A DNA stretch of 45,038 nucleotides. It comes from Acidobacteriota bacterium. Lineage in GTDB: Bacteria; Acidobacteriota; Terriglobia; Acidiferrales; UBA7541. This document shows positions 5,888 through 45,038 of the stretch, one piece after another. The translations under genes were made by a program, and so were the position numbers. Location: positions 1 to 45,038 of the forward strand of contig QHYZ01000117.1 in assembly GCA_003225295.1 (NCBI GenBank). The letters are read 5' to 3'. How positions within the stretch are numbered: position 1 is the first letter of the stretch; the number at the start of each line of letters is the position of its first letter. The notes under the pieces were generated by a model. It searched no databases. It saw only the letters and a list, made by a program, of their open reading frames with translations, and had not been told where the DNA came from.

Positions 5888-6718
5888 TCATGTGCCCATT
5901 AGGTTGGGTTGCAGCCTCGCATACCCTTTCTCATGCGCCCACAGCGTGAGCGGAATCGCCGCCAAATCATCGACCAGCGGGACGGCGCGGCCGTCTTTAG
6001 TCAAATCGACCGTCCGGAGATAAAACCGACAGGTATCACACGCTTCCACACGAATGTGCGGCAACTGCTCCGCAACGTAGACCGGCAACTTACCTTCCGC
6101 CTCTTCTCCGCAGGTGGGGCACAAGATCCGTCGAAATTCCCACTCTTGCGAGCAAAACGAGCACAGCAGAAATCGTTTCCCGCCGTCGCCTTCCGGCCGC
6201 AACACCCCCAAGAGCGGCCGCGCCCCGCACAACGGACAGAGCCTCATGGTCATTACCAGGGGAGCCCTGGCTGTTTCTGCAGCGCGAAACTCGGCATAGG
6301 GTTCGAGGAACGCTCGAGCGAGGAACTGTGCCAGCGCTCCGACTTGCTGGTCGTACTTGCCGGCATGCTCCCAGTACGCCTCAAGGTGCGCAATCCAGGA
6401 ATCCGACGGCAGCAGGGACATCTGATGCGCGGACTCCCCCAGTGCCGGCGGAGCATGCTGTTCGATCAAGGAGAGAAAACCCCGGAAGTGGGGAAGAAGC
6501 ACGGTGCGGTCGAATGGATCGCGCAGCCCGGCCACAGACGCGCGGCCCGATTTCACTGTACTGCTACCCGCGAGGTTTACCTGAAGCGTTTTCTGAAACG
6601 CAGCGATGTGCTTGTAGAAATCGAGGAACTCGGTTGCGAACAAATGTTCTGCGGACAGCCGCTCGGCGCGCCGCATTCGCGCGTCGTAGTCGCTCGCACC
6701 GGTTTGTGCGGTCGTCAT
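5888..6718 (-). CDS. fdhE: Formate dehydrogenase accessory protein FdhE
   Basis: This 276-residue protein matches the FdhE family, cytoplasmic iron-binding proteins needed for maturation or protection of Tat-exported respiratory formate dehydrogenases. The diagnostic region is a run of four CxxC motifs in the C-terminal half: LCPLCG near 162, LCSFCS near 186, LCPTCG near 200 and ACDTC near 228. These form the two rubredoxin-like knuckles typical of the family. The N-terminal half is helical (YDARMRRAERLSAEHLFATEF onward). Its ATG overlaps the fdnI stop as ATGA, so it is translationally coupled as the last gene of the formate dehydrogenase operon. In E. coli fdhE is associated with the fdoGHI genes, so this arrangement fits the assignment. 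Confidence 0.92.
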   Translation of the reverse strand: MTTAQTGASDYDARMRRAERLSAEHLFATEFLDFYKHIAAFQKTLQVNLAGSSTVKSGRASVAGLRDPFDRTVLLPHFRGFLSLIEQHAPPALGESAHQMSLLPSDSWIAHLEAYWEHAGKYDQQVGALAQFLARAFLEPYAEFRAAETARAPLVMTMRLCPLCGARPLLGVLRPEGDGGKRFLLCSFCSQEWEFRRILCPTCGEEAEGKLPVYVAEQLPHIRVEACDTCRFYLRTVDLTKDGRAVPLVDDLAAIPLTLWAHEKGYARLQPNLMGT

Positions 6719-7377
6719 TTGCGCGGGGTAGACGATCCGCCGACAATCTCATCATACCAGCCGGGGTGATAGCGCTTGGCAAACGCGATCGAAACATCAC
6801 CGCGAATGACCGAGCCAAAAGCTCCGCGCTCCGCAAACACGCCCATGTAGATGTGGATCAGAAACAGTCCAATCGTGAAGAGCGCCGCCGCAGGGTGAGC
6901 GACCACGGAAATATATCTCAAGAAGCGCAGATTCCACGGGATGTGCTCCGGGAACCACAGCACTACGCCGCTCGCCAGCAACGCCACCGTACTCCAGAAA
7001 AATCCCCAGAACAGAAACTTCTGCCCCGCGTTGTAACGCCCCGCCGGCGGCATCTTGTCGTCTTGATTCGTACTGTAGTAGCGGACCGCTTTCCACCACG
7101 CCCTGTCCACATCGGTGTGGCGCATCTGCGGCGCCCACATCACGTACATATTCCACACCGCCGCGAAAAAGATGAGCCCGGCCCAGGGATGCAGCATCCT
7201 GGAGACCGGCGCCCCGCCCAGTATCACCGCCACCCAGAACAGCCAAGGCGACCAGAACGCCAGTCCTGTCGCCAACAGATAAATGTACGCCCCGGCCGCG
7301 ACCCAATGCGTCAATCTCTCCTTCAGTGTGTACCGCAGGACATGCCCGTGAGGAATGATCAGTTCAGATGGACTCAC
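6715..7377 (-). CDS. fdnI: Formate dehydrogenase gamma subunit, cytochrome b556
   Basis: This 220-residue protein is the membrane-embedded di-heme cytochrome b subunit of the N-type formate dehydrogenase, which passes electrons from the beta subunit to the quinone pool. Four membrane segments are evident: the WVAAGAYIYLLATGLAFW region at about 25-45, AGLIFFAAVWNMYVMW near 70, WGFFWSTVALLASGVVLW near 128, and AAALFTIGLFLIHIYMGVF near 165. Heme-ligand histidines are available in ERLTHW, RMLHPW, VVAHPA and FLIHIY. The start is a GTG whose GTGA overlaps the fdnH stop, and its own stop overlaps the fdhE start. The length matches E. coli FdnI (about 217 residues). Confidence 0.93.
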   Translation of the reverse strand: MSPSELIIPHGHVLRYTLKERLTHWVAAGAYIYLLATGLAFWSPWLFWVAVILGGAPVSRMLHPWAGLIFFAAVWNMYVMWAPQMRHTDVDRAWWKAVRYYSTNQDDKMPPAGRYNAGQKFLFWGFFWSTVALLASGVVLWFPEHIPWNLRFLRYISVVAHPAAALFTIGLFLIHIYMGVFAERGAFGSVIRGDVSIAFAKRYHPGWYDEIVGGSSTPRK

Positions 7378-8267
7378 GATTTTTCTCCTCGCGGATTGAT
7401 GTCCTCATCCTCGCGAGCCTTCGGACCGAAGCGCAGGTAGTGCACAAAAAGTCCGATCAATCCGCCAACCATGGCAACGTTGCCGAGCCACTTCAATGGC
7501 CCTTTCCACAGTTTCACCGTCCACGGGACGTGCGGATCTCTCGGCAGGCCGCCATAAATCTCCGGCTTGGTCGCGTCATGCAGCACGTAAATTACGCCGG
7601 TGCCACCAACGCCTTGTGGATCGTAAACGCCGGCATTCTGAAAGTTGGAGTGCTCTCGCAATTGCTTCGCTCGCTTGCCCGCGAGGTCCAGCATGTCTAC
7701 TTTACTGCCGAAGTGCAGGCAGCCCGTCGGGCACGATTTGATGCACGCCGGTTCCAGGCCTTCGCTCACGCGGTCCGTGCACAGTGTGCACTTAAACACG
7801 CGATTAGTCTTCGGATTCATCTTGGGAATGTCGAACGGGCATCCCGTAATGCAGTAGCCGCACCCGATGCAATTGGCCTGCTGAAAATCGACGATGCCGT
7901 TGGTGTACTGCACGATAGCCCCGTCCGCGGGACATGCCGCCAGGCACCCCGGCTCCGCGCAATGCATGCACTGATTCTTGCGCATCAGCCACATCAGCGT
8001 GCCGTCTTCGCGCTCGTGCTCGTTGAAGAGAATCAGGTTCCAGTAATTCCAGCGCGTCTCCGGCATCGTCTGGTAGGTGTTTCCGAAAACCGTTTCTCCA
8101 AACGGCAAGTCGTTCCACTCCATGCACGCCACTTCGCAGGCCTTGCAGCCAATGCATGTAGTTGTATCAATGAGTTTGCAGACGGTATATTGGCGCTGCG
8201 TGTCTTCGCCGGGAACGCTCCCGGCGTGGCCGGAGATTTTTTGAATGCGCAGTATTTCTTGGCTCAT
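7374..8267 (-). CDS. fdnH: Formate dehydrogenase beta subunit, four [4Fe-4S] ferredoxin, membrane-anchored
   Basis: This 297-residue electron-transfer subunit carries electrons from the catalytic subunit to the cytochrome b. The cysteine clusters are in order: CIGCKACEVAC near 39-49, CMHCAEPGCLAACP near 98-112, CIGCGYCITGCPFD near 133-145, and CTLCTDRVSEGLEPACIKSCP near 160-180. Together these supply ligands for four [4Fe-4S] clusters. A single transmembrane helix near 255-275 (WLGNVAMVGGLIGLFVHYL) anchors it, as in E. coli FdnH. The ATG at 8267 lies 8 bases after the fdnG stop, and the stop overlaps fdnI. It has no signal peptide of its own and is expected to be exported as a complex with FdnG through the Tat system. 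Confidence 0.95.
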   Translation of the reverse strand: MSQEILRIQKISGHAGSVPGEDTQRQYTVCKLIDTTTCIGCKACEVACMEWNDLPFGETVFGNTYQTMPETRWNYWNLILFNEHEREDGTLMWLMRKNQCMHCAEPGCLAACPADGAIVQYTNGIVDFQQANCIGCGYCITGCPFDIPKMNPKTNRVFKCTLCTDRVSEGLEPACIKSCPTGCLHFGSKVDMLDLAGKRAKQLREHSNFQNAGVYDPQGVGGTGVIYVLHDATKPEIYGGLPRDPHVPWTVKLWKGPLKWLGNVAMVGGLIGLFVHYLRFGPKAREDEDINPRGEKS

Positions 8268-8275
8268 GGCGCCCT

Positions 8276-11200
8276 CTACGCTCTCTCGAGCTTCACCAGG
8301 AAGCCCTTGAATTCCGGAGTGTAGGCGTTGGGATCAAAAACCGTCGGCGTTAACAGATTTACCAGTGTCCTCGCATCGTTGTTCTCGTCTTCCTTGATGC
8401 CCCGATAACCCTGATGAATGGGAATTCCGATCTGGTAGACCTTGTTGCCGTCGATCATCATCGACTTGATCCGCTTCGTAACCATCGCTTTCGCAATGTA
8501 CTCCCCGCGGATGCTCGACACCTTAACCTTCTCGCCCCCCGTGATCCCCATCTCTTGCGCCATTTCCGCAGAAATCTCCACGAATGGCTCCGGCACCAGC
8601 TGCACGTTCATCGGATTATTCTTCGTCCAGTAGTGATAAAGCTCCGTCAGGCGATAGGTCGTACAGACGACGGTGTAGCCGTCCTTTGTTGTGCCGTATT
8701 TGTCGTCCGGGGTCTTGTAGCGTTTCACCACCGGATTGTGCGTTTGTCCCGGATGAAGCGGGTTGTCAATTGGACTTTCAATTGGTTCGTAGTGTTCCGG
8801 CAACGGCCCATCGGCAAAGACCCCGAGCGGCGCGAAGATTCGCCCTACGCCTTCCGGATTCATGATGAACGGGCCCATGTGATCTTTGGGCTTGGAATCG
8901 GTCTTGAAGTCCGGCACGTCGTTGCCCACCCATTTTTGCGTACCTTCGCTCCACCACACCTGCTTCCGCGTTGGATCCCAGGGCTTGCCGTCGGCGTCGC
9001 ACGACGCACGGTTGTAGAGCACCCGACGATTGGCAGGCCAGGACCAGCCCCATCCCGGATGCAGACCCAAATTCGAAGGGTCCGAGGGATCGCGTCGCGC
9101 CGTCTGATTGCCGGCTTCGGTGAAGGAGCCGGAGTAAATCCAGTTGCCACAGGAGGTCGTACCATCGTCTTTCAGCCAAGCAAAGCCAGGAAGCTGCTGG
9201 CCGGCCTTGATTTGCTGCTTCGTTGTTGGGTCCTCCAGATCTACCAGCGCCTTCCCGTTGATTTCCTTCAATACCTCGGCCAGGGCCGGGCTCGACGGGA
9301 CGCTGTAGTTCCAAGTCAGGTTCAAAACGGGATCAGGGAACTTACCGCCGTCTTTCTTGTACAGCTCACGAATCTTCAAGAAAATTTGCGCCACGATAGC
9401 CTGGTCCAACCGGCAGTCTCCGGGCGTCGGCAAGGCCGTATTCTTCCATAGCAGCCAGCGCGCGGAATTGGTGAACGATCCGTCTTTCTCGGCAAATCCC
9501 GCGCAAGGCAGACGGTACACCGTGGTTTGAATCTGCTTCATTTCGTCCTGAGTGATGCCCGGCGATTTCCAGAATTCACTGGTTTCGTCGGGGTAGATTT
9601 CCCCGACCACCAGCCAATCCGCTTTTTTCAGCGCGTTAATATTTTTCTTGGAGTCGGGACCGATCGCTACGCCGTTCATGCCAAAAGCCAGCATGCCTTT
9701 CACCGTCCCGCTGTACATGTCGTCCCACATCTGCACCCACGAATAGTTGCGATCCACTTTCGGCAGATAATCGAACGCCCAGCCGTTTTGTTTGGTGGCC
9801 GCGTCCCCAAACAGAGCTTTCAGATAACTGGTCGCGAATTTCGGCGTGTTGCCATAGTAGTTGAACGAATCCCACGGGCCGGGCTTCGAGGGTGTCGGCG
9901 TAATGCGTTTCATCCAGGAGTCAAAGGAAGTGTCCGCGGGCGTCGGAACTTTCAGATAGCCGGGCAAATTGTCGAAGATACCGGCCATGTCCGTGGCACC
10001 CTGAATGTTCGAGTGCCCGCGCAACGCGTTGACGCCACCGCCCGCGCGGCCCACGTTGCCCAGCAGCAGTTGCAGGATCGCCGCAGTTCTTATGATCTGC
10101 GTGCCAAACGTATGTTGCGTCCATCCCACGGCGTAGATAATGGTCGCCGCTTTCTTCATGTCGCCGTCTTTGCGAATCGAGGTAAAGAGGTCAGCGGCCT
10201 TAAGGAATTGTTCCCTTGGAATTCCGGTGATGCGTTCGACCATCTCCGGCGTATATCGCGAGTAATGTTTCTTCAGCAGCTGGAACACACAATTGGGATT
10301 CTGGAGTGAAAGATCGAATTCGACCCTTTCCGGAAGTCGGGGAGCGGGCGGGGCACTTCCGCTTGGTGCATGCGTCGCGTCACTTCCTCCACCTCCTCCC
10401 GTCCCTGCATAATTCCACGTGGACTTGTCGTAACTCTGGGTCTTGGCGTCAAAGCCGGAGAACACCCCATCGGTGTCCGCGGGCAGCTTGAAATCGCTTT
10501 TGACGATGAACGCCGCATTCGTGTAGTTGACCAGGTAATCTTTCGCGATGCGGCTGTTCTCGATGGCATAGCGAATGACGCCGCCGAGGAAAGCGATGTC
10601 CGACCCGGCGCGAATCTGGCAGAAAAGATCGGCGACTGATGCGGTGCGCGTGAAACGCGGGTCCACCACGATCATCTTTGCGTTGCGTGTGCGTTTCGCT
10701 TCGACCGGCCACTTGAATCCGCAGGGATGATTCTCGGCCGGATTACCGCCCATGATGAGCATCATGTCGGTATTCTTCATGTCCACCCAGCCATTGGTCA
10801 TCGCGCCCCGGCCGAACGTTGGTCCCAAACTTGAGACCGTGGGGCCGTGTCAAACCCTGGCCTGGTTTTCTAAATGCACGACCCCCAGGGCGCGCATCGA
10901 TTTCACAACCAAATAGTTAAACTCATTGGTATCGGTACAGCCGCCGATCCAGGCGACCGATTCCAGCCGGTTTACCGTGCGTCCCGCAGCATCCTTCTCG
11001 ACGAAAGTCTCGTCGCGCGTCTTTTTCACCTGAGCCGCGATTTCGTTTATCGCATCGTCCCACGAAATATCCTGCCATTCGGTACCACCCGGTCGGCGCA
11101 CCAGGGGCTTAAGCAGGCGCCGATCGTTCATGATCTCTTGCTGCAGCGAGGAACCCTTCGGGCACAGCGTGCCGCGGTTGGTAGGATGATCGGGGTCGCC

Positions 11201-11431
11201 CTCAACGTGAACCACTTGCGCGGTCACATTCTTCGCGCGGTCGCCAATCGTGTAGATAATGGTGCCGCAGCCAACCGCACAGTACGGGCAGGTCGACCGT
11301 GTCTCGCTTGCCCGCGCGATCTTCAGCGTCCGGAGTTGCGCAAACGCCGGCTTCAAATCAAAGCCAAACACCGCAGCTGCGGCTCCACCGATGGTTGTTA
11401 GCTTCAGGAAATCACGGCGGGTAGGGTTCAT
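8276..11431 (-). CDS. fdnG: Formate dehydrogenase alpha subunit, selenocysteine-containing, Tat-exported
   Basis: This is one gene of 1051 residues, read through an in-frame TGA at 10852-10850 as selenocysteine 194. It is the molybdopterin catalytic subunit oxidising formate to CO2 on the outer face of the inner membrane. Residues 1-32 are a Tat signal (TRRDFLKLTT, then a hydrophobic run ending AFA). The [4Fe-4S] motif CPYCAVGC...LCPKG lies near 49-98. The sequence around the TGA reads ARV-U-HGPTVSSLGPTFGRGAMTN, matching FdnG-type enzymes where U is the molybdenum ligand. Beyond it are NPAENHPCGFKWP, the VDPRFTRTA cofactor-binding segment and a C-terminal dinucleotide-binding domain. Both halves stay in frame without an indel, so this is recoding rather than a broken gene. 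A glycine/proline-rich insert lies near 325-350. SelA, SelB and tRNA-Sec must be encoded outside the window. Confidence 0.94.
10810..10852 (-). promoter_or_regulatory. UGA selenocysteine codon and bacterial SECIS-like hairpin in fdnG
   Basis: Immediately 3' of the TGA (10852-10850) the mRNA can fold. GGCC at 10846-10843 pairs with GGCC at 10813-10810. GGTC at 10838-10835 pairs with GACC at 10824-10821, closing a 10-base loop with the apical sequence TCAAGTTTGG. Position just after UGA and a small apical loop containing GU are what SelB recognises in E. coli fdnG/fdhF. Base content here is constrained by coding as well, so the exact fold is inferred. Confidence 0.75.
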
Positions 11432-11510: not shown

Positions 11511-11924
11511 GGAGTGAATGCGAAAATCTGCCGTGACTCGAGGACGCTCAAATTCTATGTATCCATCGAGTCGCCCTGAGCATCCCACTTAAATGGCTTG
11601 GCGCGTGCTGCCCGTGGTGTCCCGGTGTTTGCCGGAACGTTTCGATTACTGACCTTGCGGTGTGCCGCGAGTACCGGCCCGCGCCCTTCATTCCTGGGCC
11701 CAATCATACCAGCAGATGCCTTTATGCTATTTTCGGGCAGTCAGCCTTGGCTTGGCTTGGACATGGCCCCTTCCGGCAAAGCGAATTTCAGCCTCATTCG
11801 GCCGATTGCTGGGTTACAATGTGGATTCCCCGATCCTGTACCGCGCCATTTGTGTAATTTTCTGGCTTTGCGGTACGTAACCGGAGTTGTGTCCTTCGTA
11901 TCGATTCGAGGAACACGCGCGCTA
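11511..11924. other. Divergent intergenic region between fdn and exporter operons
   Basis: No gene is recognised. The exporter adaptor frame is open back to 11598, but those codons show no protein-like features before the ATG at 11925. Near the fdn promoter a 7-bp inverted repeat, GACTCGA (11535-11541) and TCGAGTC (11566-11572), lies upstream of the -35 box and could be an activator site. A TACAAT at about 11816 is a possible -10 box for the rightward exporter operon but lacks a good -35 partner. Confidence 0.4.
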
Positions 11925-13184
11925 ATGGCAAGCTCACAAATTTCCGCAAAACCTGACCTTGGCTCGCTGCGCATTCAAGATGGCCAGCGCAGCCAGTCGA
12001 AGGTGGGCAAACGCGTCTTGATCGCCTCCATCCCGGTGCTCATCTTGGCGATCATCGTCGCCGCGGCTTTCGCCTTCCGCAATCAGAAGCCTGTGGTCGA
12101 GGTCGCCGCTGCCGCAAAACCGGATACCGGCGGTCGTCAGGCGCTCCTGAATGCCAGCGGCTACATCACGCCCCGCCGCCGCGCCACCATCGCCGCGAAG
12201 ATTACCGGCCGCGTCACCGGCGTGTTCTTCGATGAAGGTACGCGCGTCTCCGAAGGCCAGCTCCTCGCCACCCTGGACGATTCCGACGTCAAGCGCTCGC
12301 TCGATTCTGCCAAAGCCGACCGCGACTCCGCCCAGGCCGCTATCGCTGATTATGAGGTCCAGCTTCGCAACGCCAACATCCAACTCAGGCGCGCTCAAGA
12401 CCTGCAGGCTGCCGGGGTGCAGACGCAGGAAGCGCTAGACAACGCGCGCACGGCCGTTGACAGCCTCAAAGCTAAAATCGAGCTCGCCAAGCAGCAAGTA
12501 GCCGCCACGGAATCTCGTATCGGCGTCGCTCAGCAGGCGGTGGACAATTGCACCATCCGCGCACCGTTTGCCGGCGTCGTCGTCTCCAAGGACGCGCAAG
12601 TCGGTGAGATGGTGTCTCCCAATTCCGCCGGCGGAGGCTTTACGCGCACGGGGATCGCCACCATCGTGGATATGCACTCCAACGAAATCGAAGTCGACGT
12701 CAACGAATCCTATATTGCTCGCGTCGAAAACGGCCAGCAGGTTGCTGCCACTCTAGATGCCTATCCGGATAAGCCGTTCCCGGCAAAAGTTCGTACCGTC
12801 ATTCCCACCGCGGACCGCCAAAAAGCCACTGTCAAAGTCCGCATCACGATTCTGAATCTAGAGAAATACGATTTCATTTTGCCGGACATGGGCGTAAAGG
12901 TTGCTTTCCTCGAAAATGAGCAGCCCGCTCGAAGAGGCAAGAGCAAGGACAAAGAAAAGGGCCCCCAGGCAGTCGCTTTCATCCCCAAGAGCGCAGTGCG
13001 CTCGGACGCCAATGTTTCTTTCGTTCTTTTGGTCCGCGACGGAAAAGTCGAACGCCGCGCCGTGAGTCTCGGGTTGGACCGCGGCACGGAAGTCGCGGTC
13101 TTGTCCGGTGTTGCTCCCGGCGACTCTTTGGTGGTCAAGGGTCCGGAAGGTTTGCACGATGGTGACAAGGTGGAAATTCGCTAG
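11925..13184 (+). CDS. HlyD/RND-type periplasmic adaptor (membrane fusion protein) of an ABC exporter
   Basis: This 419-residue adaptor links an inner-membrane ABC pump to an outer-membrane channel. One N-terminal transmembrane helix (VLIASIPVLILAIIVAAAFAF, about 29-49) is followed by a lipoyl/biotinyl-like half (ATIAAKITGRVTGVFFDEGTRVSEGQLLATLDD). A long alpha-helical hairpin comes next (about 120-205, alanine/glutamine/arginine-rich), then the second lipoyl half (CTIRAPFAGVVVSKDAQVGEMVSP) and beta-barrel/membrane-proximal domains (VDVNESYIARVENGQQV; VKVAFLENEQ). The open frame begins at 11598, but the 109 extra residues are unlike an adaptor and precede the membrane helix. The ATG at 11925 is therefore chosen. 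It is the first gene of a four-gene exporter operon, with the ATPase following after 35 bases. No TolC gene is in the window. Confidence 0.88.
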   Translation: MASSQISAKPDLGSLRIQDGQRSQSKVGKRVLIASIPVLILAIIVAAAFAFRNQKPVVEVAAAAKPDTGGRQALLNASGYITPRRRATIAAKITGRVTGVFFDEGTRVSEGQLLATLDDSDVKRSLDSAKADRDSAQAAIADYEVQLRNANIQLRRAQDLQAAGVQTQEALDNARTAVDSLKAKIELAKQQVAATESRIGVAQQAVDNCTIRAPFAGVVVSKDAQVGEMVSPNSAGGGFTRTGIATIVDMHSNEIEVDVNESYIARVENGQQVAATLDAYPDKPFPAKVRTVIPTADRQKATVKVRITILNLEKYDFILPDMGVKVAFLENEQPARRGKSKDKEKGPQAVAFIPKSAVRSDANVSFVLLVRDGKVERRAVSLGLDRGTEVAVLSGVAPGDSLVVKGPEGLHDGDKVEIR

Positions 13185-13219
13185 GCGGATGGGATACCTC
13201 ACGCCCCCAGGAGCTAAGA

Positions 13220-13963
13220 ATGATCCGAGTCGATGGAAATAGCGGTTCAGCCAGCCTCATCAAGGTTCGCGGGTTGAACAAGACCTACAGCCGCGGGGGC
13301 GAGAAAATACAGGTTCTGCAAGGTCTGAACCTAGACGTGGACAAGGGTGACTTTGTGGCCTTCATGGGCCCCAGCGGCTCGGGAAAGACTACTCTGCTCA
13401 ACCTTCTCGGCGGTCTCGACGTCCCTTCCGCGGGCAGCATCACCGTGGATGGCGACGAGATCACCCACATGTCAGGCAGCAAACTCACCCAATGGCGTGC
13501 CCGCCACGTCGGTTTTATTTTTCAGATGTACAACCTCATTCCTGTGCTCACGGCGTTTCAGAACGTCGAGCTTCCGCTGCTGCTGACCAAGCTCTCGAAA
13601 TCCGATCGCCGCAAGCACGTCGAAACCGCGCTTGCCGTTGTCAATCTGACCGATCGTATGCATCACTACCCGCGCCAGTTATCCGGCGGTCAGGAACAGC
13701 GTGTCACCATCGCTCGCGCCATTGTCTCCGACCCCACCTTTCTTCTCTGCGACGAGCCGACAGGCGACCTGGACCGCAAGAGCGCGGACGAAATCATGGC
13801 GCTGATCGATGAGCTTGTCGGCAAGTACAGCAAGACCATCTTGATGGTCACGCACGATCCCGTCGTCGCGGCACGTGCTCACACCACGCTGCATCTTGAA
13901 AAAGGCGTGCTCGTCGAAGGTAAGACTTCCCGTGAGAACGTCATGGCCGGAGGTGCGGTATGA
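13220..13963 (+). CDS. LolD/MacB-type ABC transporter ATP-binding protein
   Basis: This 247-residue nucleotide-binding subunit powers the exporter. All ABC motifs are intact: Walker A GPSGSGKTT near 51, Q-loop FQMYNLIPVLTAFQNVELP near 98, signature LSGGQEQR near 153, Walker B FLLCDEPTGDLD near 174, and the H-loop MVTHDP near 212. The signature has GQEQR where LolD/MacB proteins usually have GQQQR, a minor substitution. It lacks a fused membrane domain, so it must pair with the two FtsX-type permeases that follow. Its TGA overlaps the next ATG (ATGA at 13960-13963), showing tight translational coupling. The subfamily exports lipoproteins, macrolides or peptides and the substrate here is unknown. 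Confidence 0.93.
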   Translation: MIRVDGNSGSASLIKVRGLNKTYSRGGEKIQVLQGLNLDVDKGDFVAFMGPSGSGKTTLLNLLGGLDVPSAGSITVDGDEITHMSGSKLTQWRARHVGFIFQMYNLIPVLTAFQNVELPLLLTKLSKSDRRKHVETALAVVNLTDRMHHYPRQLSGGQEQRVTIARAIVSDPTFLLCDEPTGDLDRKSADEIMALIDELVGKYSKTILMVTHDPVVAARAHTTLHLEKGVLVEGKTSRENVMAGGAV

Positions 13964-15108
13964 AATTCAGCCGCTTGATCCTCGCCAATCTGTTCCGCAA
14001 AAAGGTTCGGCTCATCCTCACGATCGGCTCGTTTGCCGTGGCACTGGTTCTGTTCACGTTTCTTGCCGTGGTGAAGAGCGCCTTCAGCCGCGGTACGGAA
14101 ATCGCGGGCGCGGACCGTCTGGTAGTCGTTAGCCGTATCGGCCTAATGCAACTAATGCCCATCTCCCACCGCGACAAAATCCTGGCCATTCCCGGTGTCA
14201 AAGCGGTCACGCACAATCACTGGTTTGGCGGCGTCTATCAGGATGAAAAGAACTTCTTTCCACAGTTTGTCATCGATCCCGAGAATCAACGCCAGGTGAT
14301 GACTGAGCTGGTGGTACCGGACGACCAGTGGAACAATTTCCTGAAGGACCGCCAGGGCGCTATTGCCGGCGCCCGCACGGCCGAACGCTTCCATTGGAAA
14401 ATCGGCGATCGCATCCCCATCAAAACAACCCTCTACGGCGCCAGCTCTTGGGAGTTCAATCTCGACGGCATCTATCACAGCGATCGTCCTGGCGGCGACG
14501 AAAGCCAGTTCTGGCTGCAGTGGAAATATTTTGACGAGAACGCTCCAGCTGTCATCAAGAGCACGGCAGGATGGTACGTGGTCAAGCTCGACAGCCCCGA
14601 TGACGCTGTGCGCGTCGCCAAGGCTATTGACGAAAAGTTTGCCAACTCGTCGTTTGAGACTAAGTCCGAGACGGAATCCGCCTTCGCCGCATATTTCGTC
14701 AAGCAGTTCGGAAACATCGAGCTCTTAATCCTCACTATCGGCAGCGTCGTTTTCTTTACGTTGCTCTTGGTTACCGGCAACACCATGGCTATCTCTGTGC
14801 GGGAGCGCACCTCGGAACTGGCGGTCCTAAAAGCCATCGGCTTTTCCGGGCGCGCAGTGCTTTTCTTCGTTCTGGCAGAGTCCGTGGTGATCGCCCTGGT
14901 GGGCGGCTTCCTGGGCTTGACGCTCGCCTACCTGGCCATCCCGGTTATCGGAGTGGCTCTCACCGGTCTTCTGCCCCCGCTTATCCTTTCCAAGTCGCTG
15001 CTGACGCTGGGCCTTGGTTTCGCCCTCTTTGTTGGCGCTGTCAGTGGCCTGCTGCCGGGGATCGGCGCCATGCGCATGCGCGTGGTTAACGCGCTCAGGA
15101 GAGCCTAA
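13960..15108 (+). CDS. ABC transporter permease, FtsX/MacB type (first of pair)
   Basis: A 382-residue permease. It has one N-terminal transmembrane helix (LILTIGSFAVALVLFTFLAVV, about 17-37), then a large periplasmic MacB-PCD-like domain (about 40-245), and three C-terminal helices of the FtsX domain. These helices are near 255-275 (LLILTIGSVVFFTLLLVTGN), 295-325 (AVLFFVLAESVVIALVGGFLGL) and 345-370 (LLTLGLGFALFVGAVSGLLPG). The cytoplasmic coupling helix RERTSELAVLKAIGFSG is typical of the family. It overlaps the ATPase gene by four bases, and the second permease starts one base after its stop. The two permeases would form a heterodimer around the LolD-like ATPase. Confidence 0.9.
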   Translation: MKFSRLILANLFRKKVRLILTIGSFAVALVLFTFLAVVKSAFSRGTEIAGADRLVVVSRIGLMQLMPISHRDKILAIPGVKAVTHNHWFGGVYQDEKNFFPQFVIDPENQRQVMTELVVPDDQWNNFLKDRQGAIAGARTAERFHWKIGDRIPIKTTLYGASSWEFNLDGIYHSDRPGGDESQFWLQWKYFDENAPAVIKSTAGWYVVKLDSPDDAVRVAKAIDEKFANSSFETKSETESAFAAYFVKQFGNIELLILTIGSVVFFTLLLVTGNTMAISVRERTSELAVLKAIGFSGRAVLFFVLAESVVIALVGGFLGLTLAYLAIPVIGVALTGLLPPLILSKSLLTLGLGFALFVGAVSGLLPGIGAMRMRVVNALRRA

Positions 15109-44649: not shown

Positions 44650-45038
44650 ATGGCGAAGGAGAAATTCGAGCGCAACAAGCCGCACGTGAACATCGGGACC
44701 ATCGGTCACATTGATCATGGCAAAACGACGTTGACGGCGGCGATCACCAAGGTGCTCTCCAAGCACAACCCCAAGGTGCAGTTCCGCGCGTTCGATTCGA
44801 TCGACAACGCTCCGGAAGAGCGCGAGCGCGGGATCACCATTGCGGTGTCGCACGTGGAATACGAAACGGCGAACCGGCACTACGCGCACATGGACTGCCC
44901 GGGGCACGCGGATTACATCAAGAACATGATCACCGGCGCGGCGCAGATGGATGGAGCGATTTTGGTGGTGGCGGCGACGGATGGGCCGATGCCGCAGACC
45001 CGCGAGCACATTCTGCTGGCGCGTCAGGTGGGTGTGCC
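44650..45038 (+). CDS. tuf: Elongation factor Tu, truncated by the window end
   Basis: The first 129 codons of EF-Tu. The start [20 protein letters not shown] has a GAGGAG/GAGGAC ribosome-binding region. Motifs are [10 protein letters not shown] (P-loop, near 19-28), [14 protein letters not shown] (switch I) and [39 protein letters not shown] (switch II onward). Compared with common EF-Tu, switch I reads AVSHVEYE rather than NTAHVEYE and the P-loop has isoleucine for valine before DHGK, both conservative. The rest lies beyond 45038. This completes the usual str order rpsL-rpsG-fusA-tuf. Confidence 0.97.

Follow-up and report, generated by a model that had tools for sequence, protein, structure and literature searches.

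Does the in-frame TGA triplet in fdnG, the gene for the catalytic subunit of a formate dehydrogenase (FDH), on contig QHYZ01000117.1 of an Acidobacteriota bacterium (GenBank assembly GCA_003225295.1) end a broken gene, or is it read as selenocysteine (Sec)? The window, by which we mean the whole stretch of 45,038 nucleotides analyzed here, is contig C332 of an assembly of 8.13 Mb in 385 contigs that is 96.1% complete and 1.2% contaminated. It almost certainly carries an intact-looking operon, fdnGHI-fdhE, for a Sec-containing respiratory formate dehydrogenase of an acidobacterium near Terriglobia.

The fdnG gene (8276-11431, minus strand) is a single frame of 1,052 codons, read from 11431 to 8276, with a proper terminal stop and the TGA at 10852-10850 as its sole internal stop, so that the two halves join in frame only across this triplet, as an earlier note on this DNA had claimed. 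Under translation table 11, a plain list of open reading frames (ORFs) splits the gene in two (193 and 850 amino acids); with Sec at residue 194, the product would have 1,051 amino acids. The codon context, ARV-U-HGPTV, is the one that the note had likened to the Sec site of FdnG-type enzymes, and the TGA indeed aligns with the Sec (X in 1kqf) of Escherichia coli FdnG (1kqf_A), the best solved relative at 1065 bits. The protein, formate dehydrogenase-N alpha, passes the equivalog model TIGR01553 (1329.1 bits, cut-off 814.2) and contains the Pfam domains Molybdopterin, Molybdop_Fe4S4 and Molydop_binding. In a 14-row alignment that includes six genomes lacking a detectable FdhD (see below), site 194, H195, C48, C51, C55, C90 and K92 are invariant. 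The subunit presumably holds molybdenum (Mo)-bis-molybdopterin guanine dinucleotide and one [4Fe-4S] cluster (C48, C51, C55, C90), and we take the active-site roles of K92, Sec194 and H195 from the family. The N-terminus, MNPTRRDFLKL...AFA (11339-11431, minus strand), is a putative signal peptide of the twin-arginine translocation (Tat) type in which R5, R6 and F8 are invariant in the same 14 rows; its Tat identity, the cleavage point and hence a periplasmic location of the enzyme are predictions from the translation.

The operon has the order fdnG-fdnH-fdnI-fdhE, with fdnG first and overlaps of 4 bases at both fdnH/fdnI and fdnI/fdhE, and thus unites the alpha subunit with a membrane-anchored beta subunit and a cytochrome b gamma subunit. 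The iron-sulfur protein FdnH (7374-8267, minus strand) has the domains Form-deh_trans and Fer4, a C-terminal transmembrane segment and four intact Cys motif groups, and matches TIGR01582 (365.6 bits, cut-off 334.7) and 1kqf_B (345.6 bits). FdnI (6715-7377, minus strand), the cytochrome b subunit expected to reduce quinone, matches TIGR01583 (151.4 bits, cut-off 115.85) and 1kqf_C (110 bits), with four aligned His that we take to be haem ligands. The last gene, fdhE (5888-6718, minus strand), encodes a probable accessory protein of periplasmic formate dehydrogenases that scores 87.8 bits against TIGR01562, under the cut-off of 187.65, and has four intact CxxC motifs (CPLC, CSFC, CPTC and CDTC).

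For decoding, catalysis, export and the metal we infer the following course. SelA and SelD would make Sec-tRNA; SelB with Sec-tRNA-Sec would bind a hairpin just past the UGA and insert Sec at residue 194, where it would serve as a ligand to the active-site Mo (or W). The enzyme, exported by Tat, would oxidise formate in the periplasm, and the electrons would reach quinone by way of the beta subunit and cytochrome b. With fdnG correctly named, instead of split as in a plain list of ORFs, an acidobacterial genome regains a respiratory formate oxidase.

Selenocysteine genes and the distribution of the UGA codon

The prediction in the earlier note that the organism has SelA, SelB, SelD and tRNA-Sec held true, all four being found in the same assembly: SelA at 476 bits, SelB at 359 bits with a GTPase domain and both winged-helix Pfam domains, SelB-wing_2 and SelB-wing_3, SelD at 345 bits, and tRNA-Sec at 68.7 bits, called tRNA-SeC(tca) by ARAGORN. 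They lie on four contigs other than that of the window, and their GC content (0.55-0.60; window 0.58) does not suggest contamination, although this is a weak test. The selD gene (locus L022, C197:16214-17179, minus strand) itself has an in-frame TGA, in the context AAG-U-AAKL, and would be a second selenoprotein gene; the aligned site is TGA in 15 and Cys in 16 of the 31 acidobacterial selD loci read. Among the few genes of this genome that were read, fdnG and selD alone contain an in-frame TGA, and selA, selB, fdnH, fdnI and fdhE have none.

The UGA codon was followed across 396 Acidobacteriota genomes, drawn evenly from a larger group, 41 of which yielded an fdnG match at E <= 1e-150 (hereafter FDH genomes). 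Exactly one TGA is present in 43 of the 45 matched stretches, the other two starting past the site, and in 30 loci of the sampled genomes it was confirmed as the Sec codon itself. These 30 loci, together with 79 named loci that cover the site (from the best 80 of at least 594 found in a genome scan; L102, with the site uncovered, was left out), make up 109 readable loci. The codon is TGA in 106 of them, the window included, and Cys in three (L145, L156 and L165). The likely acidobacterial origin of the DNA, proposed in the earlier note, is supported by kinship and by the ten closest named full-length relatives among the loci kept (66-75% identity), all of them from Acidobacteriota metagenome-assembled genomes (MAGs).

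The Sec trait varies within the phylum, as had been anticipated, with SelB over the cut-off in 254 of the 396 genomes (256 at E <= 1e-60, including 37 of the 41 FDH genomes). Because SelB occurs in 254 genomes and this FDH in only 41, Sec decoding is apparently maintained in much of the phylum for the sake of other proteins, including SelD. A tRNA-Sec was found (E <= 1e-9, with stricter filters) in 35 of the 41 FDH genomes compared to one of 19 genomes of the same class without this FDH.

Several further observations concern single genomes. FDH, tRNA-Sec and selB lie within 8 kb of one another in one acidobacterial genome (G394:C9:397354-404898, locus L216). A tRNA-Sec-like hit of 85 nt (58.6 bits; G147:C50:91833-91917) occurs in a genome with no match to SelB, SelD or this FDH and may be another long-armed tRNA. 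The loci L045, L046, L047, L104 and L106 show mismatches between gene and host, with proteobacterial-like fdnG in acidobacterial hosts and acidobacterial-like fdnG in Planctomycetota and Myxococcaceae MAGs, which we regard as signs of gene transfer or misbinning.

Comparative support for the SECIS hairpin

The note had also described a hairpin after the UGA, as in bacterial selenocysteine insertion sequence (SECIS) elements. Such a hairpin, GGUCUCA-AGUU-UGGGACC, is present at 10838-10821 (minus strand), with 7 bp, no bulged U, and the loop AGUU at 10831-10828, 18 nt from the UGA. According to the accessible text of PMC13188914, the bacterial consensus comprises a loop of 3-9 nt with a G within its first two positions, a stem of 4-16 bp, a distance of 16-37 nt from the UGA and a minimum free energy (MFE) of <= -7.5. 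The window hairpin, with AGUU, 7 bp, 18 nt and an MFE of -10.2 kcal/mol (20-nt helix), lies within all these bounds, and we take it to be a SECIS of the bacterial consensus type that, as folded in silico, lacks the bulged U of E. coli.

Folding energy alone does not set this hairpin apart. The support is comparative; the rows compared are related and do not represent independent events. The loop pattern [AG]GU[CU]U is found in 106 of 106 TGA loci, the window included, and in none of the three Cys loci. At the loop codon, 72 of the 106 have AGT and 34 have GGT, although on average AGT accounts for 8.3% of the Ser codons and GGT for 13.1% of the Gly codons in these genes. Taking the 29 unique helices of the TGA rows together, four upper-stem pairs are intact in 114 of 116 cells; sliding the stem by 1-3 bases lowers this to 21-63 of 116. 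All four pairs form in 97 of the 106 rows, and the remaining nine, those of the window type, form a stem slipped by one base; neither stem is formed in any of the three Cys rows. When the 47 acidobacterial genes were randomised synonymously, either stem arose in 18% of the draws and the loop pattern in 9.5%, whereas 47 of 47 real genes have stem and loop.

Weighing the reading: hairpin, bulged U and FdhD

A number of results weigh against a functional, Sec-decoded enzyme and are gathered here. The folding energy of the hairpin is not better than that of shuffled sequences (z = -0.31, with 68 of 200 folding equally well or better), and we rejected it as proof of a SECIS. The match to the Rfam model SECIS_3 (RF01989; 10797-10855, minus strand) reaches 61.3 bits (E 1.3e-14 in a search of 111 bases) and misses the gathering cut-off of 63 by 1.7 bits, so that a search of the window at the gathering threshold gave no hit; when the hairpin is aligned in the register of SECIS_3, some pairs of its upper stem are non-standard. 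The Cys loci L145 and L165 also match below the threshold (47 and 37 bits), so the match of the window is partly plain sequence similarity; L156, the third Cys locus, gave no match at E <= 0.1. In the window hairpin the GU of the loop is unpaired (P 0.98-0.99), yet U3, the base expected to bulge, is paired, with a probability of being unpaired of 0.001 in a 48-nt context. SelB was not found in four of the 41 FDH genomes (G039, G055, G261 and G277), relaxed threshold included, and tRNA-Sec was missed in six of the 41. Finally, searches of the genome itself, 96.1% complete, with TIGR00129, PF02634 and, at E <= 5, a profile built from four acidobacterial rows found no homologue of FdhD/FdsC, the maturation factor discussed below as FdhD.

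The SECIS_3 result can be placed beside those of other loci: a Kluyvera control scores 84.3 bits, three of four other TGA loci pass, and ten other acidobacterial loci divide into four over and six below the cut-off. The earlier note had named all four sel genes together with a SECIS hit as supportive; both are there, the hit lying slightly under the cut-off, and we judge the interpretation given in the note to be supported. At the completeness stated for the 41 genomes, one would expect about 1.6 misses, with P(>=4) = 0.06 and P(>=6) = 0.002, and some of the SelB and tRNA-Sec misses may be threshold effects or real. By frame length, the best hits of the SelB search in the four genomes look EF-Tu-like. 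Three of these genomes (G039, G055 and G277) have FDH with TGA and a tRNA-Sec hit with SelB not detected; in G261, FDH is present and none of SelB, tRNA-Sec and FdhD was detected.

A bulged U and the loop GU are given as conserved or required SECIS features in PMC8704476 and PMC8659212; PMC13188914 describes many bacterial elements unlike the E. coli ones and a consensus model with no bulge requirement. In the predicted fold, the window hairpin lacks the E. coli-type bulge in the upper stem, its U3 pairing with A16 through a one-base slip of the stem. A bulged U is possible in 58 of 59 non-acidobacterial relatives, while in the 47 acidobacterial genes the U pairs with nt17 in 28, with A16 (the slipped, window type) in nine, fits both forms in seven and is bulged in three, so that it is predicted to be paired in 37 of 47; the mean probability of an unpaired U (48-nt context) is 0.16 for acidobacterial and 0.89 for non-acidobacterial genes. 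The identity of U3 is set by a Val codon, and the bulge state tracks the residue ten positions after Sec, with Pro (Gln once) where the bulge is kept and Ala or Thr where the pair forms. Because the pairing partner follows this amino acid, a change in the protein may have caused closure of the bulge.

On a FastTree phylogeny of 109 rows, the four SECIS classes require seven changes, and the window falls in a 16-row clade (support 100) of slipped and ambiguous rows. That the host SelB brought about the loss of the bulge has become less likely, as the bulge state goes with the gene lineage and with the amino acid ten positions past Sec: the proteobacterial-like genes L045 and L046 can keep the bulge in acidobacterial hosts, and the acidobacterial-like gene of a Myxococcaceae MAG (L106) is without it. 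In the window clade, nt7/nt16 are A/A in nine rows and C/G in seven, with no mixed case among the 16. This coupled synonymous change is suggestive only; we rejected it as strong evidence, the tree needing just two changes and single changes being cheap in energy.

Of the competing explanations, the one that survives best, at a probability that we would call appreciable but clearly minor, is that the loss of the bulge is an artefact of in silico folding and that U3 flips out in the cell as in E. coli. The pair in the U3-nt17 class is merely U.G in 27 of 29 rows, and for the seven window-clade rows of the C/G type the two forms are almost equal in energy; however, the other two rows of that class have a Watson-Crick U3-A17 pair, and for the window type the paired form came out at -8.5 kcal/mol and the bulged form, as evaluated, at +2.5, in line with the negligible probability of an unpaired U3. 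Because the SelD hairpin of the same genome also folds without a bulged U in its upper stem, with eight unbroken pairs, the organism seems, on these models, to read at least two bulge-free SECIS elements. If borne out, an acidobacterial SECIS that has kept the loop and seemingly lost the bulged U would be a natural experiment on the requirements of SelB.

According to PMC6239281 and PMC13197769, FdhD acts by sulfurating the cofactor; together with PMC10609526, these papers present it as essential in E. coli, R. capsulatus and M. extorquens. Since it was not found with three models, the activity of the formate dehydrogenase is not assured. FdhD is present in 28 of the 41 FDH genomes and was not found in 13, the present genome and 12 others, including seven of the 19 FDH genomes with a completeness of 99% or more; it occurs in six of the 19 same-class genomes without this FDH. 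Incompleteness explains about 1.6 of the 13 misses (P(>=13) = 6e-11, with genomes treated as independent). The four-row profile, built from the four of eight FdhD loci with usable frames, recovered four of four positive controls and gave a credible hit in none of the 13 FdhD-less genomes (best E 0.577, in G257). On the FDH tree, which holds 30 of the 41 genomes, the FdhD state requires five changes against a shuffled mean of 8.5; the clustering of its absence is only modest because the shuffled minimum is also five. No candidate replacement gene stood out beside fdn in 13 neighbourhoods (8 FdhD-less), examined with a crude choice of ORFs that passed over fdhE of the window; an FdhE-like family, named by reading, occurs in fdn neighbourhoods both with and without FdhD.

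These results give some room, though not much, to the view that the operon is present but its enzyme, lacking FdhD, is unsulfurated and inactive or catalyses another reaction. The factor was not found in the present genome and 12 other FDH genomes, and it is described as essential in the three bacteria named above; against this, the active-site residues are invariant in the 14 aligned rows, six of them from FdhD-less genomes, and the Sec codon is kept in all loci read from FdhD-less genomes. If the enzyme is active, its maturation must dispense with any recognisable FdhD, or else fdhD sits in the few percent of the genome that are unassembled. Only tentatively can we extend the interpretation to Terriglobia and several other acidobacterial families, in which this FDH-N would be both decoded through a bulge-free SECIS and matured without FdhD. 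If that were true, the bulge would have been lost by a Pro-to-Ala change or a slip of the stem, with SelB reading the loop alone, and another factor would add the sulfido ligand to the metal, or the enzyme would work without it; the FdhD-less FDH genomes would then be defined lineages for FdhD-independent maturation.

That the TGA is a sequencing error or the stop of a pseudogene, the gene being dead or encoding Cys, is very improbable: the failure to find FdhD and the draft state of the assembly, with its 385 contigs, speak for it, but 105 other loci, from many assemblies that include named isolates, share this codon at this site, the frame is otherwise intact, and the loop codon AGT or GGT, retained in all 106 TGA loci, is lost in the three with Cys. 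Least credible of all is reading of the UGA by a near-cognate tRNA or a reassigned code, to which the departure of the hairpin from the E. coli type might point, given the complete set of Sec genes, the presence of SelB in 37 and of tRNA-Sec in 35 of the 41 FDH genomes, and the restriction of in-frame TGA to fdnG and selD among the few genes read.

Neighbouring genes and comparison with known systems

Divergent from fdnG, genes at 11598-15108 (plus strand) encode an HlyD-like membrane-fusion protein, an ABC (ATP-binding cassette) ATPase and an ABC permease, all named from their translations. At 44686-45033 lies the probable start of an EF-Tu-like gene (positions 1-102 of the SelB profile; the EF-Tu name is our assignment), cut by the end of the contig, and a similar piece occurs at the end of another contig (C92:3-356, minus strand).

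As selenoproteins of Acidobacteria have been in print since 2006, the core finding is of a known kind, and the predicted loss of the bulge and the failure to find FdhD are the unusual details. In that year, Zhang listed three selenoprotein families and four selenoproteins for the phylum (PMC1794560), and three selenoproteins are given for Occallatibacter riparius (PMC12013277); the accessible parts of these reports mention neither a SECIS variant nor FdhD absence, in which our results differ from them. SECIS variation as such is already known, to judge from the available text of PMC13188914. A search of the literature on acidobacterial selenocysteine, tRNA-Sec, FDH, the SECIS bulge and FdhD, which left most subscription journals outside, found neither bulge loss nor FdhD absence described for Acidobacteriota in the text it could reach.

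The window element departs from Rfam SECIS_3 in scoring below the gathering level, in the one-base slip of its stem and in the pairing of U3 with A16, and resembles both that model and the bacterial consensus in its AGUU loop, 7-bp stem, 18-nt spacing and score of 61.3 bits. Compared with E. coli FdnGHI (1kqf), the acidobacterial system differs in a SECIS predicted to lack the bulged U, in a genome in which FdhD was not found, and in an insert near residues 344-370 of FdnG; it agrees in its three subunits, in the aligned position of Sec, and in alpha, beta and gamma subunits that all pass their family cut-offs.

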